Shown: positions 3,501-62,524 of the stretch, piece after piece
How positions within the stretch are numbered: the stretch's first letter is position 1
Layout of the letters: the number at the start of each line of letters is the position of its first letter
NCBI RefSeq assembly: GCF_037976825.1
Contig: NZ_CP150269.1
Span: 455,001-519,000 of the forward strand
DNA: 64,000 bases
Direction of reading: 5' to 3'
Source: Paenibacillus sp. FSL K6-1330
Lineage (GTDB): Bacteria; Bacillota; Bacilli; Paenibacillales; Paenibacillaceae
The notes under the pieces: model-generated
Told to the model about the DNA's origin: nothing
Database searches by the model: none
The model's input: only the letters and a program-made list of their open reading frames with translations
Translations under genes and position numbers: made by a program

Positions 3501-6500
3501 TTTTAACTCGAAATCCGGGGACCAAGGACCATTCGGCAATACCCAGCCGCCGGTTCTCTCCAGCGAAACGCAGCGCCATCAGATTGCAGCGGTCGTGAAC
3601 GGGTTCGTGAAAGACGTTGTGTCCGCTAATCCTGATGCGAACGTCGTCGTTCTGGGAGATTTGAATGATTTCCAATTTACCGAGACGGCGAACATTTTGA
3701 AAGGCAACGAATTAGACAATCTGATCGATACGCTTCCGCTTAAGGAGCGGTATACCTACACGTATGACGGGAACTCGCAGGTACTGGATCATATTCTCGT
3801 CAGCAAGAATCTGACCCGTTCTACGCAAGCCGATGTCGTGCATCTGAACGCCGACTTCCCGGCTTCCAAGGGCCGCGTATCGGATCATGATCCGGTTGTC
3901 GCGCAGATCGACCTGAAGGGAGAAGCCGTGAACGGCTTCCCGCTGACGATTTTGCATACCAATGACACGCATGCCAATCTGGATACTGTAAGCTCACCGG
4001 ATAACATTGCGCGCCGGGTGACGGCGATCAAGGAAGCCAGAGTAAACGCGATCAATCCTCTGCTTGTGGATGCAGGGGACGTATTCTCCGGCACGCTGTA
4101 TTTTAATCAATATTTGGGACTGGCGGATCTGGAGTTCATGAACCTGGTTCAATATGATGCCATGACCTTCGGTAACCATGAGTTCGATAAAGGATCTGAG
4201 GTGCTGAACGATTTCATTGAGCATGCGGAATTCCCGTTTGTTTCCTCGAACGTGAATTTTTCGGCCGATGCTATATTGACCCAGAAATTCAAGAATGAAG
4301 TGACCCGGGATGCCAAGGATGCAACCATCTACCCGGCCATCATCATGGAGGTAGACGGGGAGCAGGTTGGCCTCATTGGACTTACAACCGAAGACACGGC
4401 GAACATCGCTTCGCCTGGAGACGTCACCTTCGATGATGCGGTGCAAAAGACAAGAGACACCGTGGCGATGCTGCAGAAGGAAAGCATTAACAAAATCGTC
4501 GTGCTGTCGCACCTCGGTTATGACGTGGACGTTAACCTTGCTAAGGAAGTTGAAGGCATCGACATCATCGTGGGCGGTCACAGTCATACCAAGCTGGATC
4601 AAGCAGTCGTGGACAGGTCGGACAGTGAACCGAAGCTGATCGTGCAGACAGGGGAAAAAGGACAATTCTTAGGTCGGCTTGAGGTCGTATTTGACGACGA
4701 GGGTGTTCTGCAGGAGTGGAACAGTAACCTCATTTCCGTTGACGAGAAAGATAGTGCCGGCCAATACGTGGTACAGCCGGATCCCGAAGCCTTGCAAATT
4801 CTGAACACCAAATATAAGCCGGGCGTGGAGGAACTAAAACAAACGGAAGTCGGTTTGACCGAAGTGAAGCTGAACGGCGTTCGTGCCGACGTGCGGACGA
4901 AGGAAACGAATCTTGGCAACCTGATTGCCGATGGCATGCTGGATGCGGCGCAAGCGGCCGGCACGAATGCGGTCATCGCCTTGCAGAACGGCGGCGGCAT
5001 ACGCGAATCTATTGAGGCAGGCAAAGTCACAATGGGTGACGTGATGACGGTGCTTCCGTTTAACAATGATCTGGTCACGATTACGTTAACGGGCGCCGAG
5101 ATTAAAGAAGCCATGGAGAACGGGGTTTCCAAGACGCCGGCACAGGACGGGCGCTTCCCGCATATCGCGGGCATGAAGTTTATCTATGACTCCACCAAGC
5201 CGGTTGGATCACGCGTCCTGCGTATCGAGGTCAAAGGCAAGAACGGATACGAGCCGATCGATATGAATAAATCCTACGAGGTAGCGACGAACGCGTTTAC
5301 CGCTAAAGGCGGCGACTTCTATGCTTCGCTCGAGAAGGCTTATCTGGAAGGACGTGTGAACCTGCTCTATAAGCCTGACTATGAAGTATTCTCGAACTAT
5401 GTGAAAAGAGTAGGCACCATCACAGCCAAAACCTCCGCCGTCGAAGGACGGATTACGGACTTGAAGGGAGCGCCGCTTCCAGGAGGACCTGATCCGGGCG
5501 GACCGGGAGAACCTGGACCGGGGAACCCTGGGAACCCGGGCACCCCTGGAACTCCAGGACCGACGACGCCTCCCGTGAATCCTTCGAATCCTGGCACGAC
5601 CCCGCCGGTCGAACCAGGCAAGGTAAAGGTTCCGGTTAAGGTGGAGAATGGTGTGGCAACAGGCAGCGTCACTGGGGCTGCCATGAAGGAAGCCCTGAAA
5701 CAGCCTGTTGGCGGAAAAATTACCGCAGAGGTAACAAGCACGCAGCCAATCACTTCTTCATCCGTTACCATCGAGAATGAAGCGCTCCAGGCCTGGCTTG
5801 ATCAAACAAGCGCACAGGTGCTGGTGGTAGCGACGCTTTACGGAAGCTATGAGCTTCCGAAGAAGGAGATCAATCTCCAAGCTCTGGCTGCGCAAACCGG
5901 CTCGGATATTAGCGGCCTTCACTTGGTCATTCAGCTTGCAGTGGATTCGGATGCTCTTAAATCAGCAGCTTCCAAAGGATATCATGCGCTGCAGGCTGTG
6001 AGCTACACCGTGACAGCGAAGTCCAGTAATGGCAAGACCATCACGCTCGGTTCATTCCAATCGTATGTGAAGCGGTCCCTGAATGTCGACAAAGCGCATG
6101 CTTTGACCGATATTGCGGTTGTTCGAGTGGGCGGAAACGGCAATGAATATACGCCGGTACCATTCAAGGTGAATGGTCAACGAATCGATATCTATAGCCG
6201 TACCAACAGCACGTACCTGGTGCTGCAGAACCCGGTAACGTTCCAGGATATTGCTACGCATTGGTCCAAGGCAGACGTTGAATCGCTTGCGGCCAAAATG
6301 ATCGTAACCGGACGCACAGAGCAGACCTTTGTTCCGAACGCATCGGTCACTCGAGCCGAGTTCGCAGCGCTTGTCGTCCGGGCATTGGGCCTTTCTGCAG
6401 ACGCTGCGTCAGGCAGCTTCCAGGACGTGGTGTCATCCGATTGGTATGCCGGAGCTGTCCAGGCAGCGGTCGATTCCGGTATCATTACTGGCTACACGGA

Positions 6501-51141: not shown

Positions 51142-51891
51142 CTACATTCGGCAAATCTCTTTGGGGCAGTCCTCGCAGTGGCAAATATTCCGCAAATAGT
51201 CGGGATCATTCAGAACGATGCGTCCCCGTTCGGTAGAAATCACGCCTTGATCCTTAAGCTCGTTCAATATCCGGTTAACGCTTTCACGGGTGGAGCCAAT
51301 CATCTCCGCCATTTCCAAATTCGTAATCCGCTTGCCAATGATAGATCGTCCATCCTTGATTGTCCCACTCGTGCCGTACATATTGTACAGTCGCAGCAGC
51401 AGTGAGCATAGAGCCCCGGATTTACCATGGAGCAGCAGGTCGCGTAATTTGCTCTGCGCGGTGCGCTGCATGAGTGCCATCCAGCCCATATATTCCACGG
51501 CAAAGTCCCCGTTAGTGCGGATGACTTTATCCAGTTCGGCCTGCGGCACAATTCCGACCTCACTATCCTCCAAGGCTTTGGCTTCGAATTGATGAACGGC
51601 TCGTCCGAACGGATCGGGTTCACCGAACAGATCGCCGGGGATGTGAAGCGATAAGGTGGCCGACAATCCGTCTTCCAGCAGCTTGGATACCTTCAAGCTT
51701 CCACGGTTTACAAAGTACAGCCGATCCGCAGGATCATTCTCCTGGTATAGATAATCGCCGGCAAACAAACGGACAGGCTCAGCCATCTCCCGGATCAGAG
51801 CGAGATGCGGTTGTGAATAGACAGAGGAAGTACCCGCTGGAAACAACCCTCCATACCATGTTTCGGACCTTGCAGCTCGATTCTGTTTCAT
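51142..51891 (-). CDS. fnr: Fnr-type Crp/Fnr regulator with C-terminal Fe-S cysteine motif
   Basis: 249 residues: cyclic-nucleotide-binding-like sensor domain (about 25-140) and a Crp helix-turn-helix (about 185-235; NLEMAEMIGSTRESVNRILNEL). The last residues carry Cys237, Cys239, Cys242 and Cys247, so that CEDCPKEIC gives C-x2-C-x4-C. B. subtilis Fnr holds its [4Fe-4S] cluster with the same C-terminal pattern, so this is probably an oxygen- or NO-sensitive activator of anaerobic genes. ATG 51891 lies 9 nt after AAGGAG. It follows the FMN transferase gene by 22 nt in one operon. Fnr boxes occur in this cluster. Reading frame and motif are seen; oxygen sensing is inferred. Confidence 0.88.
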   Translation of the reverse strand: MKQNRAARSETWYGGLFPAGTSSVYSQPHLALIREMAEPVRLFAGDYLYQENDPADRLYFVNRGSLKVSKLLEDGLSATLSLHIPGDLFGEPDPFGRAVHQFEAKALEDSEVGIVPQAELDKVIRTNGDFAVEYMGWMALMQRTAQSKLRDLLLHGKSGALCSLLLRLYNMYGTSGTIKDGRSIIGKRITNLEMAEMIGSTRESVNRILNELKDQGVISTERGRIVLNDPDYLRNICHCEDCPKEICRM

Positions 51892-51913
51892 ACGATCTTC
51901 TCCTTCCATAAGT

Positions 51914-52978
51914 TTATTCGGCAAGCTGATAATCGTCATTGGTCAGCTTAAATGCATGGGTCAGACCTGAGGTGAGATAGATTTGATGATCGGTGGTGAC
52001 AAAAATGGCTTCGGCATCGTCGCGGCTCTCGACGAACTGCCGTCCTTCCGTTAGTCCAAGCGAGAAGACGGAAGTTGACATGGCGTCGGCGTCCATGGAC
52101 GTGTCGGTCACAATCGTTACGCTGAGCAGGTCATTATCGACCGGATAACCGGTGAAGGGGCTCAGAATATGGTGATACACCTTCCCTTCTGCTTCGAAGA
52201 AGCGCTCGTACACGCCGGAGGTTACGATTGTCTTATTGACGACCTTCAGTGTTCCCAGATGCTGCCCGCGCTTTTCTCCGGGATCCTGGATGCCGATATT
52301 CCACGGTGAACCGTTCGGTTTCGAGCCCATGGCAAGGATATTGCCCCCAAGATCGATGATGGCCGAATGAAAATCCTGCTGCTGCAAATAATCCGCGATG
52401 ACGTCCGCTGCATATCCTTTGGCGATGGCCCCCAGATCCAGCGACATTCCTTCTTTCTTCAGCAGAATGGCATGGGATGCAGGATTCAAAATGACATCCT
52501 TGTAATTCATTCGCTTCATGGCAGCATCCAGCTCATCCTCTTCCGGCACAGCGGGGTGTTCACCGCCAATGCCCCAGAGGTCTACAAGCGGGCCTACGGT
52601 CGGTTCGAAATGTCCGCCGGAAGCCGCCGCATAATCGATGGCGGTTTGGACAACCTTGAAGGTTTCCTCGGATACGCTCACTTCGGACTTGCCCGCCGCT
52701 TGATTGACCCGATCAATCTCGCTGTCCGCCAGCTGCCGGTTCATGCGTTGGTCGATCCGATCCAGCAGTGCGCCTACCTCATCGAAATGCTGGGACGTCA
52801 TCCGTTCATCGTAAACGCGGAGACTTACAATGGTATCGAATATAAAGTAACGTTCGGTTGCCGGTTCGTTGCTGGCGGCTACCTTCTGATCTGCTGTGGT
52901 TGTGCAGCCAATCGATCCCGTCATCAACAGGGTGAGCATGATCAACAGGCTGCTGTAGGAAAGAAGCTTCCTATACAT
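51914..52978 (-). CDS. apbE: ApbE-family FAD:protein FMN transferase, lipoprotein (FmnB)
   Basis: 354 residues. The lipoprotein signal ends in SIGC with Cys25. The ApbE body shows GHFEPTVGPLVDLWGIG, SLDLGAIAKGYAAD, IIDLGGNI, the metal-site SPFTGYPV and TDTSMDADAMSTSVFSLG. Such enzymes move FMN from FAD onto a Thr or Ser of target proteins outside the cell with Mg2+. Its likely substrate is the lipoprotein PplA, encoded 8.5 kb away, which has two acceptor motifs. Start ATG 52978 follows GAGGAGG. It leads an operon with fnr and is divergent from eetA over a region holding an Fnr box. In Listeria the equivalent FmnB serves extracellular electron transfer. Confidence 0.92.
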   Translation of the reverse strand: MYRKLLSYSSLLIMLTLLMTGSIGCTTTADQKVAASNEPATERYFIFDTIVSLRVYDERMTSQHFDEVGALLDRIDQRMNRQLADSEIDRVNQAAGKSEVSVSEETFKVVQTAIDYAAASGGHFEPTVGPLVDLWGIGGEHPAVPEEDELDAAMKRMNYKDVILNPASHAILLKKEGMSLDLGAIAKGYAADVIADYLQQQDFHSAIIDLGGNILAMGSKPNGSPWNIGIQDPGEKRGQHLGTLKVVNKTIVTSGVYERFFEAEGKVYHHILSPFTGYPVDNDLLSVTIVTDTSMDADAMSTSVFSLGLTEGRQFVESRDDAEAIFVTTDHQIYLTSGLTHAFKLTNDDYQLAE

Positions 52979-53062
52979 GACAGTGCCTCCTCTTTTCAGT
53001 TCTGGTGCTGTTCTCAATCGAGTTCCGATGATCTCAGCGTATCAGACCATTCCCTTGCTGAA

Positions 53063-53078
53063 TGTGAGAAAAATCATT
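53063..53078. promoter_or_regulatory. Fnr box between fmnB and eetA
   Basis: TGTGA-GAAAAA-TCATT, three of five right-arm bases matching TGTGA-N6-TCACA. With a -10 GATAAT at 53100-53105 the predicted start is 53112 and the box centre lies at -41.5, the class II activation position. On the other side a -10 TGATAC (53044-53039) puts the same box near -38.5. Confidence 0.6.
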
Positions 53079-53137
53079 TCTGGCACTTGGTGCAGCCCTG
53101 ATAATGAAGATAAGCAAAGCGAAGTGGAGAGATGCTG

Positions 53138-53518
53138 ATGAAACGCGGAGATATTGGAATAGCGCTCGTGCTGATAGTGGTTGTCGCCTGGTTTGGAATA
53201 TCCAAGTTTATGGGAGAAGACGGAGCGGCGCAGGGAAACTATGCCATGATCGAGGTGAATGGAAAGCATTATGATACGGTGGCGCTTACGGAAGAGCCCC
53301 GAGATATAGAAATCCGGACAGAACGGGGATATAACCTCTTGAGGGTCTCCCGCGAGGGGATCGAGATGGTGGAGTCGGATTGTCCGGATCAGCTCTGCAT
53401 TGGGTTCGGTCACGTTCACGATGTTCATGGCACCATAGTATGTTTGCCCAATCGGGTGTTTGTAGAAGTGACTGGAGATCAAGTTGAAGGAAGTGAGCCG
53501 GATGCCGTTGTCTCCTGA
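53138..53518 (+). CDS. eetA: EetA: membrane-anchored NusG domain II protein
   Basis: 126 residues: one N-terminal transmembrane helix (about 6-24) and an outside NusG domain II-like fold with Cys82-PDQL-Cys87 and Cys102 (VCLPNRVFVEV). That Cys pattern is conserved in EetA proteins of flavin-based electron transfer loci. It is proposed to pass electrons from demethylmenaquinone to extracytoplasmic flavoproteins with EetB; the chemistry is not proven. ATG 53138 lies 6 nt after GGAGAG. It starts an operon eetA-eetB-ecfA-ecfA'-ecfT and reads away from fmnB. Confidence 0.88.
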   Translation: MKRGDIGIALVLIVVVAWFGISKFMGEDGAAQGNYAMIEVNGKHYDTVALTEEPRDIEIRTERGYNLLRVSREGIEMVESDCPDQLCIGFGHVHDVHGTIVCLPNRVFVEVTGDQVEGSEPDAVVS

Positions 53519-54047
53519 TCCCCATGCGCTCCGCAAGCTGGTCGTAATCGCCATCTGCGCTTCCTTATCGGTGGTGCTTGGCATTGTGGAAGCCCTGATT
53601 CCATTTGCGGTCACGATACCCGGTGCCAAGCTGGGACTTGGCAATATTTTGGTGCTGACCTGTCTAGTCTGCCTAGGGGGCAGAGATGCCCTGTGGCTTA
53701 TTGTTTTAAAGACATTGCTGACTGCCTTTATACTGGGAAGCTTTTCGACCTTTCTGTTCAGTATGTTCGGCGCGCTGGCGAGTTTTTTGGTGATGTATGT
53801 CATGCTTAGGCTCGGGGGCCATAATTTCAGTTTAACCGGCGTGAGCATCGCAGGTGGCATTGCTCATAATATTGGCCAATTAACGGCAGCTTCGCTGGTA
53901 TTGGGAACAACCAAAATTTATTATTACTTGCCATTTTTGCTCGGAGCGGGTGTCGTGACGGGGATCTTTGTGGGATGGGCTGCAAAACATCTGATCGAAT
54001 CCCTGCGACGTATCGATCCGTTTGGCATGTTTCACACGGAAAGTTAA
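53502..54047 (+). CDS. eetB: EetB: Gx transporter/heptaprenyl diphosphate synthase component I-like membrane protein
   Basis: 181 residues, five to six membrane helices; PGAKLGLGNILVLTCL and GGIAHNIGQLTAASLVLG are hallmark stretches. The family is distantly related to substrate-binding S components of ECF transporters. In Listeria EetB is required for extracellular electron transfer with EetA. ATG 53502 follows AAGGAAG; TTG 53484 is an alternative. It overlaps eetA by 17 nt and lies 16 nt before ecfA, so it may be the S component served by the adjoining EcfAA'T, a hypothesis from gene order. Confidence 0.88.
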   Translation: MPLSPDPHALRKLVVIAICASLSVVLGIVEALIPFAVTIPGAKLGLGNILVLTCLVCLGGRDALWLIVLKTLLTAFILGSFSTFLFSMFGALASFLVMYVMLRLGGHNFSLTGVSIAGGIAHNIGQLTAASLVLGTTKIYYYLPFLLGAGVVTGIFVGWAAKHLIESLRRIDPFGMFHTES

Positions 54048-54063
54048 GGAGGAGGCGTTAGGC

Positions 54064-54939
54064 ATGGTGGACATAACCGATAAGTCAGAGCACGCGGTCC
54101 AACTCAAGCATGTATATTACGGACAGGGCTGTACGAACGTGCTCAAAGACGTCTCGCTGGCGATCCCTCATGGGCAATGGGTATGCATCGCCGGAAGGAA
54201 CGGGGCAGGCAAGTCCACGCTGATTCGCCTGTTAAACGGACTTCTCCTCATGAGTCGGGGACGGATTCTTATTGATGGGCTGGAATTGAACGGCCGTACG
54301 CTGGGTGAAATTCGCCGTCATATTGGCATGGTGTTTGCTAATCCTGACGATCAGTTTGTTGGCCTAACCGTAGAGGATGATATTGCGTTTGGCCTGGAAA
54401 ATCTGTGTCTGAGCCGGGAAGAGATGCTGCAGCGGATTCGGATCTATGCGGAGCGGCTGGATATCGTCCATCTGCTCCACCGCCATCCGGCTACTTTGTC
54501 CGGTGGACAGAAGCAGCGCGCTGCCATTGCTGCCGTGCTGGCGATGGAGCCTTCTATCATTGTCTTGGACGAGGCAGCTTCCATGCTGGATGAGAAGGCT
54601 AAGAATGAGCTGCTGGGTTTCATGCGAACCATGCATGCCGAAGGCCGATATACCATCATCTCCATCACCCATGACGTAGAGGAGATGGCCGAAGCAGACC
54701 GGATGATCGTGTTGGATGGCGGAATGGTCACGGCAGACGGAAGTCCAAGGGAGCTGCTGCTGCAGGAAGAGCTGCTCCAGCGTTGCAGGCTAAAGGTTCC
54801 TTTTGCCCTCCAGCTATGCAGGGAGCTGAAGGCGCGGGGGATTGATATCGGTGAGCTGGTTAGGGAGAAGGAGGTGCTGGAGGCGTTATGGTCATATCAT
54901 TCGAAGAGGTTTCTTACCGCTACCGGGACCGGGGGATGA
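54064..54939 (+). CDS. ecfA1: ECF transporter ATPase EcfA1
   Basis: 291 residues with Walker A GRNGAGKST, LSGGQKQR signature, Walker B IIVLDEAASMLD and switch His in ITHD. It forms the energising heterodimer with the next gene. ATG 54064 follows GGAGGAGG by 8 nt. Within the eet operon it is a second ECF ATPase pair, distinct from the housekeeping one normally found with ribosomal protein genes, and would power EetB or a riboflavin/FAD transporter S unit. Confidence 0.92.
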   Translation: MVDITDKSEHAVQLKHVYYGQGCTNVLKDVSLAIPHGQWVCIAGRNGAGKSTLIRLLNGLLLMSRGRILIDGLELNGRTLGEIRRHIGMVFANPDDQFVGLTVEDDIAFGLENLCLSREEMLQRIRIYAERLDIVHLLHRHPATLSGGQKQRAAIAAVLAMEPSIIVLDEAASMLDEKAKNELLGFMRTMHAEGRYTIISITHDVEEMAEADRMIVLDGGMVTADGSPRELLLQEELLQRCRLKVPFALQLCRELKARGIDIGELVREKEVLEALWSYHSKRFLTATGTGG

Positions 54940-55745
54940 GCCCTATTCTTGGACTCGACGGTCTTAATCTGGAGCTGGAGGAAGGCGGAATGATTGCCGT
55001 CCTCGGTGCGCCGGGTTCGGGAAAATCAACGCTTCTCCAGCATATGAACGGATTGATACGGGCAGATGAGGGCTTGGTTCGCATATTGGATTTCCGCCTT
55101 GAATCGGGTGACAGCAAGAAAGTCCCTGCCGGTCTGCGGCAGCGCGTCGGCCTGGTGTTCCAATACCCGGAGCAGCAGCTGTTTGAAGAGACGGTGGAGA
55201 AAGATCTGCTGTTCGGGCCGCTTAACTTCGGGCGGAGTCCAGCCGAAGCTGCCGAGGCGGTCCGCAGAGTGGCTTCCTTCGTCGGATTAGACGAGGAGCT
55301 GCTGGCGCAGAGTCCATTCAAGTTAAGCTCGGGCCAGATGCGAAAAGCGGCCGTGGCTGCGGTATTGGCGGCTGACCCCGACATTTTGGCTTTGGATGAG
55401 CCTACGGCCTCCCTCGACCCTGCCAGCCGTGAGGATTTGATGGGGCGGCTGCATGGATTAACGAGGACCCAAGGCAAGACGGTTCTCATCGTCACCCACC
55501 GGCTGGAAGAAGTCGTGGCCTACGCGGACGAGTTCGTTGTAATTAAAGATGGCAGCATCGTATTTCAAGGAACTGCCAAAGAGTTGGTTCACCGGCAGGA
55601 GGTGCTGGAGCAGGCGGGACTGATGGCTCCGTCGTCCGTGCGGATGGCGGGCAAGCTGGCAGCTCAGCTTGGAGTACAGCCTCCGGAGATGCCACCGGAT
55701 GCGGCGGCGCTGGCGGATTGGTACGCAAGCCAGCTTGAAATATAG
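54888..55745 (+). CDS. ecfA2: ECF transporter ATPase EcfA2
   Basis: 285 residues with Walker A GAPGSGKST, the FQYPEQQLFEETVEKD Q-helix typical of EcfA', a signature LSSGQMRK, Walker B ILALDEPTASLD and THRLEE. The switch and Q motifs are those of the second EcfA subunit. It overlaps ecfA1 by 52 nt, which indicates coupled synthesis of the pair. ATG 54888 has CTGGAGG 5 nt before it. Confidence 0.92.
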   Translation: MVISFEEVSYRYRDRGMSPILGLDGLNLELEEGGMIAVLGAPGSGKSTLLQHMNGLIRADEGLVRILDFRLESGDSKKVPAGLRQRVGLVFQYPEQQLFEETVEKDLLFGPLNFGRSPAEAAEAVRRVASFVGLDEELLAQSPFKLSSGQMRKAAVAAVLAADPDILALDEPTASLDPASREDLMGRLHGLTRTQGKTVLIVTHRLEEVVAYADEFVVIKDGSIVFQGTAKELVHRQEVLEQAGLMAPSSVRMAGKLAAQLGVQPPEMPPDAAALADWYASQLEI

Positions 55746-55781
55746 GGCAGGGCGAAGCAGAGGCGAAAGGAGGAAGCATGG

Positions 55782-56573
55782 ATGAAGCAAAAAATCATCC
55801 TGGGCCGATATATGGAAGGTGATTCATGGGTTCACCGTCTGGATCCGCGTGCCAAGACGGCTGCCATGCCGCTCTTTATGGTAGCCGTGTTCCTGGTAGA
55901 CGGATATATGGGGGTGCTCGCGCTGCTGCTGTTCACTGCGGCGGTGATCCGGGCTACGAGAATCCCGTACCGTTATTTCATTAGAGCCATGAAGCCGCTG
56001 ATGTTCCTAATATTGTTCATCCTGGTATTTCATCTTCTCTATGACGCGGGAGGCGGGAAACTGCTGGATGTGGGCGCGTTCAAGGTGTATACCGGCGGAT
56101 TGGAAAAAGGCATCGTGTCCGCATCACGGATGGCGCTCTTCATCATGTTGGCGGCGGTGCTGACCTTCACGACCCAGCCAGAGCAGCTGGCCCAGGGGCT
56201 CGGCAGCCTTCTGCGGCCCCTGACCTATATCGGCGTGCCGACCGATCGGCTGGTGCTGATGCTCGGCATTGCCCTCCGGTTTATTCCGACCATTTTCGAA
56301 GAAGCGGAGCGGCTGTGGAAGGCACAGCAGTCCAGGGGACTGGACCTGTCGTCGCGGTCGCTGAAGGAAAAGGCGCGGCTGATCATTGCCCTGCTGGTGC
56401 CTGTAACGACAGGCGCATTCCGGCGCGCCATCGGGCTTGCCGATTCCATGGAAGCCAGAGGCTACCGGCTGGGTGCGCCGCGAAGCAGGTTCAGGGCCTC
56501 TGTATGGAAGCGGGCGGACACGCTGTTTGTTGCATTGTTCCTGCTGCCTGTGGCCGCAGCCGCGCTGCTGTAG
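55782..56573 (+). CDS. ecfT: ECF transporter transmembrane subunit EcfT
   Basis: 263 residues with five to six membrane helices and the coupling motif ADSMEARGYRLG (AxR-G pattern) that contacts the ATPases; also LDPRAKTAAMPLF at the N-terminus, conserved in EcfT. ATG 55782 follows AAAGGAGG. Last gene of the eet operon; a terminator is 20 nt behind. No separate riboflavin S component (RibU/FmnA) is present in the window. Confidence 0.92.
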   Translation: MKQKIILGRYMEGDSWVHRLDPRAKTAAMPLFMVAVFLVDGYMGVLALLLFTAAVIRATRIPYRYFIRAMKPLMFLILFILVFHLLYDAGGGKLLDVGAFKVYTGGLEKGIVSASRMALFIMLAAVLTFTTQPEQLAQGLGSLLRPLTYIGVPTDRLVLMLGIALRFIPTIFEEAERLWKAQQSRGLDLSSRSLKEKARLIIALLVPVTTGAFRRAIGLADSMEARGYRLGAPRSRFRASVWKRADTLFVALFLLPVAAAALL

Positions 56574-56593
56574 TTTGGGGATTGAAGGAAAGA

Positions 56594-56629
56594 AAACCGC
56601 AGTCAATCTTTACGGACTGACTGCGGTTT
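56594..56629. terminator. Terminator of the eet-ecf operon
   Basis: AAACCGCAGTC pairs with GACTGCGGTTT, then TATTTTA; convergent with the MORN gene. Confidence 0.85.
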
Positions 56630-56632
56630 ATT

Positions 56633-57556
56633 TTACTCGAATTTTATAGGGAACGCCTCACAAACACTTGTGGACGAGTTGCTGCAGCTTGTTGGCTCTG
56701 ATTCGTTTCCAATGTCTGTTAATAGTTTTGAGAATTCACCCAGATAGGGCTGCAAGACATGTTTATTGTTATTGATTTTCCCTTGAACGATCCCAGCAAA
56801 CCGTCCATTCTCCTTCATGTCTTTTGCGGTAACGAGTTTCCCATTCTTGTAATTCTCTACTCTATAGTATTCTTCATCCTCGAAACGTTGGTTTACTCCA
56901 GTATAGAGCTCCATCACCTCATAGTTATCCATTCGATATACGCCTTCGCTGATGGAACTACCGTAATCCTCCATCGCGCTTGCATAGGCGAACCCTTTGT
57001 AGCCGGGTTTAGACTTTTCCCTTTTGTAATAATTCAGGTCTTGAATGTGGCCGTGAGCCAATTTGGAATGCATCAGTTCATTCGCCTGCTCTCGATCCGA
57101 TACGGAAAAAGCCAAGAAGGTGTTCCCATCCCGATATTCAAACCAAAGGGAGTCCAGGGATTGCATCACGGCATGACCCGACAGCAAGTCATGATCCTTG
57201 AAAATGCCCTCCGAGATTACATAAAATTCAAGATCAGGGTTGCTCTCCTTGCGAACCCCGGTTCCATCGGGCCGGTCGCCCTTCCATTCACCCTCATATA
57301 CGATTTTCATATCCTCTGGAAGCCTGTCCGATATGTATTTGCCTGTGCCGGATCTTTGTCCATTGTACCAATCGCCGCTGTACACTTTGGAAGGTCCCCA
57401 TCTCATGGTGCCTTTACCGTGGGGTTTGTTATTCTTCACTTCTCCGTAATAGGTTGCCCTGTTTGGGAGGGTCAAGCTCACTTTTTGGTTTGAGGCCTCG
57501 GTCTCCTCTACATTTGAATCTTGTCGCTGATCCGTATCTTTATGTATATCATCCAC
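56633..57556 (-). CDS. MORN-repeat protein, N-terminus possibly lost
   Basis: 307 residues: three MORN-like repeats near the start (YYGEVKNNKPHGKGTMRW, YSGDWYNGQRSGTGKY, YEGEWKGDRPDGTGV), then a region I do not recognise (about 110-300). MORN repeats often bind lipids or serve as scaffolds. The start is GTG 57556 with no ribosome site. Upstream, the frame continues through L-G-K-S-S to a TGA, and the polar first 25 residues look like a lipoprotein tail after its signal peptide, so a secretion signal may have been destroyed. It interrupts the electron transfer cluster between ecfT and the polyprenyl synthase and is probably unrelated to it. Confidence 0.65.
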   Translation of the reverse strand: MDDIHKDTDQRQDSNVEETEASNQKVSLTLPNRATYYGEVKNNKPHGKGTMRWGPSKVYSGDWYNGQRSGTGKYISDRLPEDMKIVYEGEWKGDRPDGTGVRKESNPDLEFYVISEGIFKDHDLLSGHAVMQSLDSLWFEYRDGNTFLAFSVSDREQANELMHSKLAHGHIQDLNYYKREKSKPGYKGFAYASAMEDYGSSISEGVYRMDNYEVMELYTGVNQRFEDEEYYRVENYKNGKLVTAKDMKENGRFAGIVQGKINNNKHVLQPYLGEFSKLLTDIGNESEPTSCSNSSTSVCEAFPIKFE

Positions 57557-57606
57557 GGATGATTTACCCAGTCAAATCATAGATGAGAATCATGTCAAAC
57601 GTAAAG

Positions 57607-57927
57607 TTATAATATGGAAATTAAATATGTGAATTGGATATTTGGCCTATCTTTTTTTGTAGGTTTCACAATACAGCTTGTAGAGAATGAAACTATAAGA
57701 AAACACCGTTGCCGTGAAGGAACGATGTTTTCTGTCATCTGCATTAATGCATCGGTATCGGCATATTCGTCGGCTCGATCCCCTGGTAGGCCTGATCCAC
57801 GGACTGCCGGTCCCTTCACGCTGGACATATGCGAAAGAGGCGTATCGGGATTCAGCAGGTAGTCGCTTTTTCCGTCGGATCGGTCTGCAAGCTTTTCCGC
57901 ATACAGGACATGTTCTGCTATATCCTT
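57607..57927 (-). pseudogene. Unidentified coding relic
   Basis: A frame open just after a TGA near 57930 reads about 70 residues of normal composition (HVLYAEKLADRSDGKSDYLL, MSSVKGPAVRGSG, DRADEYADTDALMQMTENIV) with no start or ribosome site, then degrades. It may be the rest of a small gene of unknown family. The 441-nt stretch between the MORN gene and the polyprenyl synthase holds nothing else but the hairpin next to it. Confidence 0.3.
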
Positions 57928-57935
57928 TCATAATC

Positions 57936-57972
57936 GAACAGGGATGCATCCATCATGGATGCATCCCTGTTC
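57936..57972. terminator. Long hairpin beyond the polyprenyl synthase gene
   Basis: GAACAGGGATGCATCCAT, one base, then its exact complement ATGGATGCATCCCTGTTC (18 bp). It lies 26 nt beyond the end of the minus-strand operon and should stop it, although its exit lacks a strong T-run. Confidence 0.65.
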
Positions 57973-57997
57973 ATTTTGAGTATATGGATTCATGTCT

Positions 57998-59008
57998 TTA
58001 GGGCAGAAAATAATGGAGCAGGACCTGCAAATCATGCTGGGCCGGATGATCCGTAAAGTCGCCGATCATTCGCTGAGCCTGTTCCGCATACGATCGGGCA
58101 AGCGCCTCGCTTTGCTCAATGGCGCTGCTAGCGGCAATGCGGTGGATGACTTCATCCATGTCAGCCGCCACAGAGTGGGGGCCAAGCTGTCTGATTCCAG
58201 GTGCAAGGGCTGGATCGTTGAGGGCGTAAATCACCGGCAGCGTAATGTTGCCGTTTCGCAGGTCTGCGCCAGCCGGCTTGCCGATGGCCTCCTTGGGCTT
58301 CGTGAAATCGAGCAGGTCATCCCGGATTTGAAATGCCATGCCGAGCGACTCCCCGAATTGAAACAGCCGTTCAGCGGTTCTCGCATCCGCTTTGGCTGCT
58401 TCCGCGCCCGCTTTCAGGCAGTGGGCCATCAGCAGGGCGGTTTTGCAGCGCGTTTTCTCTAAATACTGCTCCAGCGTCAGTTCATAGTTAAAGCGGTGGT
58501 GCAACTGATCGTATTCTCCCATACAGAGCTCGGTTACCAGAGCCGCAAGTTCGGCTAACCGGTAAGCATCCTCCTCGGAGACGCCATCACTACTCCTGTC
58601 TGACTCGTCATTCGGATTACCTGCGGCCCATTCGATGGCACGGGCAATCATGTAATTGCCGATATGCACGGCTGTCTGGACATCCGTGGTTTCATGCAGG
58701 GTCGGTAGCCCTCGCCGCATATCGGATTGATCGATGATGTCATCGTGTACCAGCGAGGCCATGTGTAAATATTCAAGCAGCACGGCGGTTTTCATTACGG
58801 CTGGATCATGCCCGCTTTCCCCGAAACGGCTGCCGAGCACGACCATGAGCGGACGCAGCCGCTTGCCGCCGGCGTCAATGAGATCTATGACGCTGCTCAG
58901 CACAACAGAGGGAGGAGTGAGGTCACGGTCTGAGGTGACCACCTCCCGGAGCAGGTTGTCGAAGGAAGCGAGATCCACTCCCATTTGGTTATGAATGTTC
59001 ATTTGCAT
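57998..59008 (-). CDS. Polyprenyl (heptaprenyl) diphosphate synthase, DmkB role
   Basis: 336 residues. The two Asp-rich motifs are intact: HDDIIDQSDMRRG (first) and IRDDLLDFT (second), with GGKRLRP at the N-terminus. These enzymes elongate isoprenoid diphosphates to the C30-C40 tail of menaquinone. In Listeria the electron transfer locus has a paralogue, DmkB, that makes the tail of a dedicated demethylmenaquinone; gene position suggests the same here. The start is ATG 59008 or 59011 behind AAAGGAG. A small gene just upstream looks like its regulatory subunit. The DmkA prenyltransferase is not in the window. Confidence 0.87.
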   Translation of the reverse strand: MQMNIHNQMGVDLASFDNLLREVVTSDRDLTPPSVVLSSVIDLIDAGGKRLRPLMVVLGSRFGESGHDPAVMKTAVLLEYLHMASLVHDDIIDQSDMRRGLPTLHETTDVQTAVHIGNYMIARAIEWAAGNPNDESDRSSDGVSEEDAYRLAELAALVTELCMGEYDQLHHRFNYELTLEQYLEKTRCKTALLMAHCLKAGAEAAKADARTAERLFQFGESLGMAFQIRDDLLDFTKPKEAIGKPAGADLRNGNITLPVIYALNDPALAPGIRQLGPHSVAADMDEVIHRIAASSAIEQSEALARSYAEQAQRMIGDFTDHPAQHDLQVLLHYFLP

Positions 59009-59033
59009 CATCGCTCCTTTCCCAGATGGCTCC

Positions 59034-59471
59034 TTACGCGCTCCGTTGCTCCAGATAGCTGCGGATTTCGCGCTTCAGCTCTTTAAGCAGGATTTCGGGT
59101 GAAACGTTCTTCATTAGATTCAGCTGCATGCGTTTATGAAAGGGGAGAAGCCGGGACAGCAGCTTCCATTCCTTCCGTTTGACGGCAATCCGGTACATAA
59201 GCCCGGTTAAATAATCGCCATCCAGCAGCATGCGCGTCAATCTCTCGTTGTCCTGTGCCTGCAGCTTGCCGTGCTTGCTTAGAGCGGAATGAATCAGGAT
59301 GCAGCATGCCAGCACCGTCATTTTCCGGGAATAGGCCAGTTCATAAGCGTTGAGCATATCGGCAATGTCCCTCACCGGCCTGTTATCCATCTCCATCCAA
59401 TCGATATCCGTTCCGGAATCGATATGCGACCGAAGCAGGTCGATCGTATCCTGTAATAGCTTCATATCCAT
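59034..59471 (-). CDS. Small helical protein, probable heptaprenyl diphosphate synthase component I-like subunit
   Basis: 145 residues, all-helical. The stretch CCILIHSALSKHGK and DGDYLTGLMYRIAVKRKEWKLL resemble the small subunit HepS/GerCA of heterodimeric heptaprenyl diphosphate synthases, in which a DY..G/S...Y pattern recurs. It lies 25 nt upstream of the catalytic-subunit gene in the same direction, as hepS does before hepT. I judge this from pattern only. ATG 59471 follows AAGGAG by 9 nt. If correct the pair is a complete two-subunit polyprenyl synthase within the electron transfer cluster. Confidence 0.6.
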   Translation of the reverse strand: MDMKLLQDTIDLLRSHIDSGTDIDWMEMDNRPVRDIADMLNAYELAYSRKMTVLACCILIHSALSKHGKLQAQDNERLTRMLLDGDYLTGLMYRIAVKRKEWKLLSRLLPFHKRMQLNLMKNVSPEILLKELKREIRSYLEQRSA

Positions 59472-59541
59472 CGTTATTGACTCCTTCCGGAAGGCTCGTG
59501 CTGATTAAGAGTGTGAATGACGGCAGAACGGCCTGTGAACC

Positions 59542-59573
59542 GAATCGGCAAGCATGATAAGACAAGCCGATTC
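59542..59573 (-). repeat. Inverted repeat between ndh2 and the polyprenyl synthase genes
   Basis: GAATCGGC pairs with GCCGATTC across a 16-nt loop, without a T-run. It lies 18 nt past the ndh2 stop and may stabilise or partly terminate the transcript. Confidence 0.4.
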
Positions 59574-59590
59574 TCTCGAATGGTGAAGGA

Positions 59591-61474
59591 TTAGTCCGTA
59601 TACACGTACCATCGCCTTACGATCGGAATTCGTTTCCATACCTTCTTCAGCCAAGGATATACATAGTAGTCAAGTCCGAACGTGCTGCCCGATCCGCCGA
59701 TTAAGGCGATCCCAGCTGCCAGATACCACAGCATTTCGTTAGGTGCCATACCTGATACCCAAACCATCGCGCCCATGGCAACGCTAGCTACGGCTGCAGG
59801 TGCCGTGAACAATCCGACGATCAGCAGGATGCCGACGATCAGCTCAGCCAGGACCATCGAGGTCTGAAACACATAGGCGAGCGAAGTATAGCCGCCGTCG
59901 CCGGTGTAAAACATCAGGTCCATCGACCAATCGACAATGGATTTCATGAAACCCGGAACCGGCAGGGCGGATACCGCTTCTGCGGTATAAGCGGAGGCGG
60001 CGGAGACCGCGTCAGCCGCTCCAGCTCCGGCTGCCCCGGCAGCATCGGCGCCGGCAGCAGACGCTGCGCTTACGCCATCGGCTGCTTTGGCAGGAATAAG
60101 GAACACCTTATTCGGATCCTCAATAATCTTGTGGATTTTATCCCATCCCTGAGAGAGCCACATCCATCCGGCAAAAATCCGCAGCGGAACGAGCCAGAAA
60201 TTCGGAGACCGTTTGGCAAAATGTCCCCCCACGAAGCTGCGATTGTTCCGAACATGGAAGAATTCATGCAGCAGGTAATGGTATACCTTGTTGAAGCCGC
60301 AAACCTGGAACAGATAGAGCATATTGATCATATGTTTGACCAGCATAGCCATGAAGCCGCTGAGCCTGAACATGTGGCCAGGAACGCCCACGTTAGCTAC
60401 CCCGTAGCGGCTGCCGATACAGACCATCGTTCCGTGGAACGTCGGTTTGTAGGATTTCATTGGTTTGTTCAATAGTTCAGCCACAATGTTATGTGCGATG
60501 ACTGGGGCTGCGAGTTCCGCATTTTCTACCATTTGAGGTACGGGTGCAGCCGCGCCCTCAGGAATGTAGAAAATATTGTCCCCGACGACATAAACGTTCG
60601 GATGGGCAGGAACTTGAAGCTTGTCGTTGGTCAAAATACGCTTGCGGCCTTTTTGCTCGACATCCATATTGCCAACTACGTCGGAACCCTCAACCCCCGC
60701 GGTCCAGATAACCGTACGGGATTTGATGTCATTGCCGCCGACGGTAACGCCGTCCGGTTTAACTTCTGTAATCTTCGAGCCTGTGATGATATTGACATCC
60801 ATTTTGCGCAGCCGTTTCTCGGCTTTGCGGATTAACGGTTCGGGCAGGATCGGCAGGATCTTGTCGACCATGTCGGCGACATGAAGTGTAACCTCGCTTG
60901 GATCAACGTAGAACTCTTTGCATAATTGTTGAGTGAATTCGGCCAGCTCGCCGATCATTTCGACCCCGGTGAATCCACCGCCGACCACGACAAAGGTCAG
61001 CATTTCTTTGCGGACCTGCGGGTCGCGCTCCAGTACTGCTTTTCGGAACATATTCAGGGTATGTTCCTTCAAGCGGACAGCATCATCATACGACCATAAG
61101 GTAAAGGCGTGTTGATCTGCGCCCGGTATGCCGAAGAAGGTTGGCTTGCTGCCTGTTCCGATGACCAGATAATCATAGTTATAGGTTTGTTTCTCTCCAC
61201 GGAGTGTTTGACCGTCAAAGTCAATGCCGCCGATTTCATCCAGCACCACGTCTACATTGCGGAATCCGGAGAACACTTTTTTCAGATCGATTTTGATGGA
61301 ATCTTCTTCGACCCGATTCGCGGCCACTTCATGCAGCTCGGTCAGCAGTGTATGATACGGCTTGCGGTCGATGAGTGTTATCCGCAAATCTTTCTGTTTG
61401 CGCAGTCGTTTAGCCAGCTTCTTGGCGGTAAGTATACCGCCATATCCGCCGCCCAGCACGATAATCTGTTTCAT
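59591..61474 (-). CDS. ndh2: Ndh2: type II NADH dehydrogenase fused to a DoxX-like membrane domain
   Basis: 627 residues. N-terminal part (1-415): FAD-binding LGGGYGG (7-13), second Rossmann VVVGGGFTGVEMIGEL (162-177) for NADH, and YVVGDN (295-300), as in single-subunit Ndh-2 enzymes. C-terminal part: a DoxX-like membrane domain with helices at about 429-447, 535-556, 559-577 and 580-600, interrupted by an Ala/Gly/Ser-rich linker (463-503). The length and membrane tail match Listeria Ndh2 of the electron transfer locus, which feeds electrons from NADH to demethylmenaquinone. It lies 43 nt behind pplA in one operon. Confidence 0.9.
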   Translation of the reverse strand: MKQIIVLGGGYGGILTAKKLAKRLRKQKDLRITLIDRKPYHTLLTELHEVAANRVEEDSIKIDLKKVFSGFRNVDVVLDEIGGIDFDGQTLRGEKQTYNYDYLVIGTGSKPTFFGIPGADQHAFTLWSYDDAVRLKEHTLNMFRKAVLERDPQVRKEMLTFVVVGGGFTGVEMIGELAEFTQQLCKEFYVDPSEVTLHVADMVDKILPILPEPLIRKAEKRLRKMDVNIITGSKITEVKPDGVTVGGNDIKSRTVIWTAGVEGSDVVGNMDVEQKGRKRILTNDKLQVPAHPNVYVVGDNIFYIPEGAAAPVPQMVENAELAAPVIAHNIVAELLNKPMKSYKPTFHGTMVCIGSRYGVANVGVPGHMFRLSGFMAMLVKHMINMLYLFQVCGFNKVYHYLLHEFFHVRNNRSFVGGHFAKRSPNFWLVPLRIFAGWMWLSQGWDKIHKIIEDPNKVFLIPAKAADGVSAASAAGADAAGAAGAGAADAVSAASAYTAEAVSALPVPGFMKSIVDWSMDLMFYTGDGGYTSLAYVFQTSMVLAELIVGILLIVGLFTAPAAVASVAMGAMVWVSGMAPNEMLWYLAAGIALIGGSGSTFGLDYYVYPWLKKVWKRIPIVRRWYVYTD

Positions 61475-61517
61475 GCGAATCTCCCCTCAAGGAATAGTTG
61501 TCTTATATCTCTTGTTC

Positions 61518-62426
61518 TTATTTGGCGCCTTCGAGCGCTTTCGTTGCCAGCTCTACCAATCCGTTGACGTGGATCGACACACCGGAGATTGCATCGGTTT
61601 TGCCGTCTTCCGCCGTTACGATTGCTTGCGGATCTTGCTTTTCAATCAAATACTGCTCGGCTTGGTAAGCCTGTTCATGCCATTCGGATTGAGCTCCGCC
61701 GTTCTTCATGCCGTATTCACCGGATTTGGAACGGGTAACTTTATCGGTACCGCCATCTTTATGAATGCCGTTCCAGCTGACCGTGGCGATCTTTCCGTTA
61801 ATAACGGTAACGTCGACGGTTTCTTTCCAGCCGGACTTAGCGTCGAAATCAGCCGCTTCTGCGTGATAGCTGCCGTCTTTGTATGGTCCTGCTTCAACAG
61901 GTCCCGCTGCCAGCGCTTTTGCTGCCAGTTCGGTAAATCCGTTGACATGGATCGATACCCCGGATACGGCATCCGTGCGGCCTTCATCGTTCAAGGCCAA
62001 GCCTTCAACCGACTGCTGAGCCACCAGATATTCCTCCATTTTAGCTGCCTGCTCATGCCATTCTGCTTGAGCGCCGCCTTTTTCCTTCATACCGTAGAAG
62101 CCTTTTTCGGAAAATGTCTTTTTGTCCAAGCCGCCGTCCTTATGAAGCCCGTTCCAGTTGGCGCTGACGATCTTGCCGCCTTCGACCTTAATCGCAACGA
62201 GTTCTTTCCAGCCGGAGTCTTCGGCAAACTCGCCTTCAGCGTAATATAAGCCGTCCTGCAGGGTTCCTTCTTGTGCAGGCTGTTCCGCATTACTTGTGTT
62301 ATCCGTGTTTTGGCTCTCTGCTGGTTTGTCCGTATTAACCGGCTCTTTGTCACCGTTGCCTCCGCAGCCGACAAGCAGCGCAAACATCAACATAACGGAG
62401 AGGGATAGAGAGAGTGTCCTTTTCAT
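61518..62426 (-). CDS. pplA: PplA: lipoprotein with two FMN-binding domains
   Basis: 302 residues. The signal ends in LLVGC with Cys21 as lipid anchor. Two tandem FMN-binding domains follow (about 56-172 and 182-298). Each has a covalent FMN acceptor motif: DAVSGVS (152-158) and DAISGVS (278-284), with Ser158 and Ser284 as likely FMN sites, the target of the ApbE enzyme nearby. The protein should shuttle electrons from the membrane to outside acceptors such as ferric iron or free flavin. ATG 62426 follows AGGAGGA. Two Fnr boxes lie upstream. It leads the pplA-ndh2 operon. Confidence 0.93.
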   Translation of the reverse strand: MKRTLSLSLSVMLMFALLVGCGGNGDKEPVNTDKPAESQNTDNTSNAEQPAQEGTLQDGLYYAEGEFAEDSGWKELVAIKVEGGKIVSANWNGLHKDGGLDKKTFSEKGFYGMKEKGGAQAEWHEQAAKMEEYLVAQQSVEGLALNDEGRTDAVSGVSIHVNGFTELAAKALAAGPVEAGPYKDGSYHAEAADFDAKSGWKETVDVTVINGKIATVSWNGIHKDGGTDKVTRSKSGEYGMKNGGAQSEWHEQAYQAEQYLIEKQDPQAIVTAEDGKTDAISGVSIHVNGLVELATKALEGAK

Positions 62427-62447
62427 TCTGATTTCCTCCTATGATTT

Positions 62448-62463
62448 TGTGAATTACTTCACA
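62448..62463. promoter_or_regulatory. Perfect Fnr box upstream of pplA
   Basis: TGTGA-ATTACT-TCACA, the full B. subtilis Fnr consensus and a perfect palindrome in its arms. It lies 22 nt before the start codon, about +20 relative to the predicted start of transcription, a place where binding would repress or block. Confidence 0.8.
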
Positions 62464-62481
62464 AATATTGTTCTTGAGTTC

Positions 62482-62524
62482 ATTTTATTCTTAAAAAGAA
62501 TAGTTATCGGTGAAAAAAATCACA
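62482..62524 (-). promoter_or_regulatory. pplA promoter with Fnr box at -41.5
   Basis: The minus strand has TGTGA-TTTTTT-TCACC (62524-62509), one mismatch from consensus, and a -10 TAAAAT (62487-62482). The predicted start at 62475 puts the box centre at -41.5, the class II activator position. Confidence 0.75.

Follow-up and report, generated by a model that had tools for sequence, protein, structure and literature searches.

The window considered here is a stretch of 64,000 nucleotides (G000:C1:455001-519000) from the single-contig genome, 7.43 Mb in size, of Paenibacillus sp. FSL K6-1330, and between its positions 51142 and 62426 lies a locus for flavin-based extracellular electron transfer (FLEET). 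The locus is real and is of a sort common in the family Paenibacillaceae; its new part is the regulatory architecture, together with a locus-bound gene for an Fnr regulator, both of which are well supported by the sequence. The best explanation of these features, and one that we regard as probable, is that an electron export locus has been wired into the oxygen response via Fnr, with an fnr gene inside the cluster.

The locus and its genes

The host is close to Paenibacillus lautus, its type II NADH dehydrogenase (Ndh2) being 99% identical to those of P. lautus NBRC 15380 and Paenibacillus sp. EZ-K15. The genes form three transcription blocks. Two of them diverge, fmnB-fnr lying on the minus strand and eetA-eetB-ecfA1-ecfA2-ecfT on the plus strand. 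The third, pplA-ndh2-p145-hepT, is again on the minus strand and converges on ecfT, with a MORN-repeat gene in between. The gene order, including fnr, is common to five named Paenibacillus genomes (EZ-K15, P. lautus, P. glucanolyticus, P. campinasensis and P. solani) and the locus is thus not a product of chance; these five and the window are referred to below as the P. lautus group. The MORN-repeat gene (56633-57556, minus strand) is present in only three of the six loci of the group, namely the window and two of the named genomes. The first-pass annotation had already read the cluster as FLEET; family matches place every gene that it named within 51142-62426 where it had been put, and gene content, gene order and family models support the FLEET identity. 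The features are as follows.

51142..51939, minus strand: fnr (EET-Fnr, for extracellular electron transfer), Crp/Fnr regulator by family match, with C-terminal CX2CX4C (C255, C258, C263) and recognition helix RESVNR
51914..52978, minus strand: fmnB, ApbE-type FAD:protein FMN transferase, a lipoprotein with lipobox-like GSIGC (ApbE, 311 bits; best PDB match 7esa)
53036..53041, minus strand: predicted -10 of the fmnB-fnr promoter, TACGCT (agrees with the consensus at 3 of 6 bases; distance to the shared Fnr site 21 bp)
53063..53078, no strand assigned: Fnr-type site TGTGAGAAAAATCATT, 2 mismatches, predicted to be common to the divergent fmnB-fnr and eetA promoters
53100..53105, plus strand: predicted -10 of the eetA operon, GATAAT (21 bp from the shared Fnr site)
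53132..53518, plus strand: eetA, NusG domain II (NusG_II, E 3.9e-27)
53484..54047, plus strand: eetB, Hpre_diP_synt_I, ECF-S-like (E 1.6e-45); FAD exporter S subunit by published analogy
54022..54939, plus strand: ecfA1, ABC_tran (TIGR04520, 319 bits, cut-off 315)
54888..55745, plus strand: ecfA2, ABC_tran (TIGR04521, 296 bits, below the cut-off of 330)
55782..56573, plus strand: ecfT, fmnA-type T subunit (CbiQ, 7.7e-41)
56633..57556, minus strand: MORN-repeat gene, located between hepT and ecfT and close to terminator-like hairpins (56594-56629 and 57936-57972)
57998..59011, minus strand: hepT-like polyprenyl diphosphate synthase, dmkB-type (polyprenyl_synt match)
59034..59471, minus strand: p145, 145-residue HepS-like small subunit of polyprenyl synthase (by family profile; direct comparison weak)
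59591..61474, minus strand: ndh2, type II NADH dehydrogenase (Pyr_redox_2) whose C-terminal tail is hydrophobic and DoxD-like
61518..62426, minus strand: pplA, lipoprotein (FMN_bind; lipobox) whose two repeats are of the FMN_bind type, with the motifs DAVSGVS and DAISGVS
62448..62463, no strand assigned: exact TGTGAN6TCACA by pattern search; the 18-mer 62447-62464 is the Rex-type palindrome TTGTGAAGTAATTCACAA
62482..62487, minus strand: predicted -10 of the pplA-ndh2 operon, TAAAAT, from its spacing to the Fnr site
62509..62524, no strand assigned: Fnr site TGTGATTTTTTTCACC (minus strand), lying upstream of the -10 at the 21-bp distance of class II geometry

Predicted Fnr-type promoters

Bacillus Fnr recognises Crp-like TGTGA half-sites, and in class II promoters the palindrome is centred at about -41.5, that is 21 bp from the -10 element. 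The 157-bp gap between pplA and pyrD holds the window's only exact match to TGTGAN6TCACA (62448-62463) as well as one of its two one-mismatch sites (62509-62524), and the latter lies 21 bp from the TAAAAT box, giving class II geometry at the pplA promoter with respect to a predicted start. In the gap between fmnB and eetA the site at 53063-53078 is flanked at exactly 21 bp by GATAAT on the eetA side and by TACGCT on the fmnB side; the TACGCT has a TGA before it, in the manner of an extended -10, and is identical in the six P. lautus-group loci and in locus L128. Both arrangements, the pplA sites and the symmetric fmnB/eetA site, are kept in P. campinasensis despite diverged spacers, and the symmetric site recurs in L129 and, in a weaker form, in L128. 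Generic sigma-70 and terminator scans showed no enrichment.

Of 118 genomes sampled from the family, 44 gave a pplA match, the present one included, and six of these matches cover the second half only. Promoters were compared in 46 loci, made up of 40 from the 43 other pplA genomes (G106, G059 and G098 being left out), the five named loci and the window; L130, L133 and L150 are short, the contig ending there, and in L164, L165 and L166 the pplA match begins inside the query, so that the upstream stretches are misplaced. A composite consisting of an Fnr site (at most one mismatch), a 21-bp gap and a -10 (at most two mismatches) occurs upstream of pplA in 36 of the 46 loci, or in 30 of 40 when the P. 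lautus group is set aside, and in 200 dinucleotide shuffles the composite turned up in 0.01 loci on average and in one locus at most. Composite matches in 877 kb of sequence from these loci number 49, and 36 of them fall within the 310-bp stretches upstream of pplA. When the whole genome was searched, allowing up to two mismatches, the composite was found 21 times compared with once for a reversed control, and since 14 of these matches stand before genes related to anaerobiosis, redox processes or nitric oxide (by family models, some genes being cut by the locus end) the pattern behaves like an Fnr regulon. The genes concerned are nirB, hmp, pflB, hcp, adhE, RIC, cydA (cytochrome bd subunit I) and those for a NarJ-like chaperone, a CoA-disulfide reductase, two DoxX proteins (one scanned, one read as a near copy), a lipoprotein with an FAD_binding_2 domain, PplA itself and a U32-type protein weakly like TrhP/UbiU that is only loosely redox-related.

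A number of observations weigh against the proposal, and others of the same kind are given below with the Rex-type palindrome, the second Fnr and the PplA motifs. The site at 53063 carries two mismatches and the fmnB -10 matches at only three of six positions; loose Fnr sites across the window are not enriched (21 found, 24 expected), so that the Fnr signal lies solely in position, spacing and conservation. A gap of 16 bp also scores, in 20 of the 46 loci, the remaining gaps from 14 to 28 bp standing at 4 or below, and the composite is absent in 10 of the 46; because the loci are related, the 36 are not independent events. Seven of the 21 genome composites (L051, L054, L055, L057, L058, L059 and L062) have no recognised anaerobic neighbour, those at L051, L057 and L058 lying inside reading frames.

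The Rex-type palindrome

The Rex operator of Staphylococcus aureus is given as TTGTGAAW4TTCACAA (PMC2883068). The 18-mer at pplA agrees with this consensus at all 14 fixed bases and at three of the four W positions, and it fits the Fnr core exactly too; the fourth W position is occupied by G, which counts against a Rex operator. The exact 18-mer occurs once in the genome, just downstream of the predicted pplA start, and Rex-type sites with at most one mismatch number eight in the genome as opposed to one in the control, one of them lying between adhE and the gene for a second Fnr (Fnr2, 2.637 Mb). Rex is encoded in the genome (PF06971 over cut-off). A Rex-type box (at most one mismatch) is found in 10 of the 46 loci, the six of the P. 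lautus group together with L127, L129, L130 and L133, and all ten fall within one 12-row branch of the Ndh2 tree.

It may be that the palindrome at 62448 is instead a second Fnr site, serving in tandem activation or in roadblock repression by Fnr, and we give this a chance only a little short of even. It matches TGTGAN6TCACA exactly, the Fnr and Rex cores overlap, and three of the eight Rex-type sites (254432, 2638228 and 3045305) coincide with the palindromes of Fnr composites, for which reason Rex and Fnr are not separable here by sequence alone. Against the second-Fnr-site explanation, the outer and inner Rex bases (TTGTGAA-N4-TTCACAA), distinct from the class II pplA sites (TGTGAT..), are kept in the P. 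lautus group, in which the four central bases vary (GTAA, CTTA, CTAA), and the genome does encode a Rex.

The in-cluster regulator and the ancestry of the locus

The likelier start of EET-Fnr is the ATG at 51891 (17th codon), which is preceded by GGAGAAG. In the Fnr of B. subtilis and B. cereus the cluster is held by a C-terminal CX2CX4C, with Asp (D141 in B. subtilis) as the fourth ligand (PMC3520743). C255, C258 and C263 of EET-Fnr form the same CX2CX4C, from which an iron-sulfur cluster is predicted, and D167 is invariant in 20 aligned Fnr rows, an alignment that lacks the B. subtilis sequence. That an Fnr gene lies inside the cluster, the most interesting of three features first held to be new, is borne out, and it is seen only in the P. 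lautus group: EET-Fnr stands directly behind fmnB in all six loci, down to 66% Fnr identity. None of the 40 other loci gave a Crp/Fnr match, fmnB being in view in only nine of them, so that an fnr next to an fmnB farther away would have escaped notice.

Another account would be that of an ordinary FLEET locus under the housekeeping Fnr2, the in-cluster fnr being a passenger or a regulator of something else; this we consider possible and somewhat less probable than the second Fnr site discussed above. The same pplA promoter architecture occurs in 30 of the 40 family loci with no fnr in view, and Fnr2, which shares the recognition helix RESVNR and the cysteine motif with EET-Fnr, could do the work alone, which also tells against a special role for the in-cluster gene. 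The passenger explanation sits poorly with the retention of EET-Fnr behind fmnB throughout the P. lautus group, and with its position downstream of fmnB under an Fnr-type promoter and in a clade of its own. In a tree of 46 Fnr rows (L176 gave no protein) EET-Fnr forms this clade with 100/100 support on a long branch, and Fnr2 belongs to another supported clade, one that it shares with five congeners and two rows from other genera. A recent origin of EET-Fnr as a copy of Fnr2 is ruled out by these separate clades, subject to weak deep nodes and a long-branch warning.

There is also evidence on the origin of the locus as a whole. In the Ndh2 tree the P. lautus group is placed among rows that carry five other genus codes (g10, g11, g13, g16 and g17), and its grouping with ten congeners was rejected by the approximately unbiased (AU) test (p-AU 1.6e-68, quick tree), the clade having been picked after the identity values were seen. 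The position beside pyrD was seen in no other fetched locus. The tree and this position suggest that the P. lautus group gained the locus by horizontal transfer. A search for plasmid carriage of the locus gave no near match. As a marker of vertical descent pyrD was uninformative, 51 of the 118 genomes being matched and congeners (61-65%) being hardly closer than most other genera.

Flavinylation and flavin export

The closest solved structure to FmnB by sequence is 7esa, 'FAD:protein FMN transferase' (E 6.7e-86), which we take to be Listeria FmnB, the structure listing naming no organism. PplA matches the NCBIfam PplA model over residues 7-296 with 76 bits, below the cut-off of 325, and its second repeat matches a solved protein of 131 residues, 2kzx (E 1.6e-35). 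From its FMN_bind match, lipobox and two flavinylation-type motifs (DAVSGVS from residue 152 and DAISGVS from residue 278) PplA is predicted to carry flavin mononucleotide (FMN). Two FMN-acceptor motifs had been noted before, and two are indeed present; the alanine of the published consensus, D-x-x-[S/T]-G-A-[S/T] (PMC12052999), is replaced by valine in both, a departure that weighs against the FLEET assignment. The same replacement is seen in 73 of 76 motif instances among the 46 loci, which end in GVS or GVT and not in GA[S/T], counting matched segments only and with four rows yielding none. In a Klebsiella flavinylation target an A-to-V change roughly halves flavinylation (PMC12052999, section 8), a further point on that side. 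Since the change lowered and did not abolish flavinylation in this one published target, the GVS motifs lower FLEET membership by the letter and not its likely function; either the family tolerates a GVS motif or its FmnB has adapted. A functional GVS motif would widen the known range of ApbE targets.

Family models identify EetA, EetB and the subunits of the energy-coupling factor (ECF) exporter. EetB, an exporter subunit, and FmnA, a T subunit, are reported to be required for export of flavin adenine dinucleotide (FAD), and the eetB-ecfA1-ecfA2-ecfT set found here fits that need (PMC9973259). The lack of RibU, noted earlier for the window, extends to the whole genome, in which no ECF_trnsprt match passes the cut-off. 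The best ECF-S candidate, at 7.297 Mb, resembles a CD3073-type S component below cut-off, and it adjoins an apparent nucleoside phosphorylase gene (by eye), which weighs against its being RibU. No Rfam family, riboswitches included, reached the gathering score in the window or at the 7.297 Mb locus.

Elsewhere in the genome a lipoprotein with an FAD_binding_2 domain, fumarate/urocanate reductase-like by eye (L065:2209-3744, minus strand; G000:C1:252708-254243), has a TAVSGAS stretch behind its lipobox. Its promoter, at 0.254 Mb, carries an Fnr composite, the site of which doubles as a Rex-type box with one mismatch, and the protein is possibly a second client of FmnB. This lipoprotein, and the finding that Listeria FmnB also serves FrdA (PMC9094743), could be taken to mean that the cluster is mainly for flavinylation of other extracytosolic reductases or for quinone upkeep rather than for metal or electrode reduction, which is improbable given that PplA together with a tailed Ndh2 marks the EET type and that Paenibacillus sp. 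Cedars, with a similar operon, reduces iron minerals (PMC10373932).

Ndh2 and quinone synthesis

An operational definition of EET systems asks for a type II NADH dehydrogenase with a membrane segment, clustered with ApbE (PMC8238504), and here Ndh2 homology, a hydrophobic DoxD-like tail read from the sequence and fmnB are found in one cluster. The membrane tail first ascribed to Ndh2 is thus present, as a C-terminal stretch behind Pyr_redox_2. The tail (residues 535-616) is related to the DoxX proteins encoded at about 1.188-1.192 Mb (L067:1995-2543 and 4806-5357, minus strand; G000:C1). These two genes have class II Fnr promoters of their own (0 and 1 mismatches), with a second TGTGA-type site within the spacer.

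The description of hepT and its 145-residue neighbour as a polyprenyl synthase pair is probably right. HepT has a polyprenyl_synt match; p145 has no Pfam match at E 0.001. Of 42 loci with p145, 11 members were aligned; seven of the 11 match HEPPP_synt_1 at E of 1 or below (best 5e-5), an LDGD-L motif is invariant across the family, and the family profile finds HepS, PDB 9kp1 (E 1e-8). A direct profile comparison with HepS from this genome gave a weak result (probability 29.9, E 0.00056). As a separate hepS/hepT pair exists at 2.77 Mb, its HepT 40% identical to that of the locus, the EET locus appears to own a synthase pair.

That dmkA is lacking in the window is true; as an arrangement it is not new, since Paenibacillus sp. 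Cedars also has dmkA elsewhere (PMC10373932). The genome holds a dmkA candidate outside the window, a 1,4-dihydroxy-2-naphthoate (DHNA) prenyltransferase at G000:C1:2767746-2768717 (L066:3747-4718; 398 bits, cut-off 289), which may be dmkA or may be the cell's menA. A DoxX-family gene stands directly before it (the two together at L066:3041-4718, plus strand; G000:C1 about 2.767-2.769 Mb), and hepS, a menG-like gene (by eye) and hepT follow a few genes later. Two UbiA proteins (L004 and L005; G000:C1 2.771 Mb and 0.772 Mb) are MqnP-like, below the MqnP cut-offs, and a weak MenA-type prenyltransferase is also encoded; quinone biosynthesis may be redundant.

Proposed mechanism and significance

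Genes, gene order, site sequences, spacing and conservation were read directly; transcription starts, protein binding and electron flow are inferred, and that electron export, Fnr and Rex binding and expression are all deduced in this way counts against the proposal. Ndh2 would pass electrons from NADH to (demethyl)menaquinone, the side chain of which would come from the HepT/HepS-like pair of the locus and be attached by a prenyltransferase whose gene lies outside it. EetB together with EcfA1-A2-T would export FAD, FmnB would attach FMN to PplA, and PplA would hand electrons to ferric iron or other outside acceptors. At low oxygen, Fnr carrying a [4Fe-4S] cluster would bind at about -41.5 and activate pplA-ndh2, and at the one symmetric site it would activate both fmnB-fnr and eetA-ecfT; fnr, which follows fmnB directly and in the same orientation, would thereby boost its own expression. 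The Rex-type operator just downstream of the predicted pplA start may hold the operon off until NADH builds up. A more far-reaching proposal, offered tentatively and with odds that we put below even, is that external electron export is core to the Paenibacillaceae Fnr regulon, that the P. lautus-group locus was acquired horizontally with its own diverged, self-amplifying Fnr, and that its promoter reads the absence of oxygen (Fnr at -41.5) together with high NADH (Rex at about +20).

How Gram-positive bacteria control when electrons go outside is little described in the literature that we found. If the proposal holds, a single promoter would unite an oxygen-sensor site, conserved over much of the family, with a possible NADH-sensor site, and the switch would be directly testable. 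Those pplA-bearing Paenibacillaceae (44 of 118 genomes) that have this promoter would export electrons mainly when oxygen is short, and such oxygen dependence would affect how iron reduction should be assayed. No description in print was found of an Fnr gene inside a FLEET cluster, nor was a description of Fnr or Rex control of FLEET recognised in a search that left most subscription papers outside.

Comparison with known systems

The FLEET locus of Listeria monocytogenes was reportedly described by Light et al. in 2018. It has in common with the present locus FmnB, PplA, Ndh2, EetA, EetB, the ECF exporter and a polyprenyl synthase; here, unlike in Listeria, the dmkA candidate lies outside and RibU was not found, and the PplA motifs end in GVS in place of the consensus GA[S/T]. 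To our knowledge the HepS-like subunit and the Fnr gene, both present here, are absent from the Listeria locus.

The nearest precedent is Paenibacillus sp. Cedars, related to P. glucanolyticus, in which seven of eight FLEET genes stand with ecfA1-ecfA2-ecfT in one operon, dmkA lies elsewhere and reduction of iron minerals has been measured (PMC10373932). Both members of the genus keep fmnB, eetAB, pplA, ndh2, dmkB and ecfA1-ecfA2-ecfT together, with dmkA (here a candidate) elsewhere. Novelty had been claimed for a spore former as FLEET host, and this is ruled out by the Cedars precedent, as also by pplA in 44 of the 118 family genomes. Sporomusa does not serve as a further precedent, no clear FLEET set being reported in the available text of PMC7901989. 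Fnr goes without mention in the main text of the Cedars paper as available, and Rex, promoter sites and the HepS-like subunit were not found described there.

As regards the regulators, EET-Fnr has the CX2CX4C ligands of the B. subtilis and B. cereus Fnr (PMC3520743), and differs from them in being encoded behind fmnB, apart from the genome's main Fnr, and on a long branch. The putative Rex operator has the same 14 fixed bases as that of S. aureus, and differs in the one W position that is G and in its place upstream of an EET operon.

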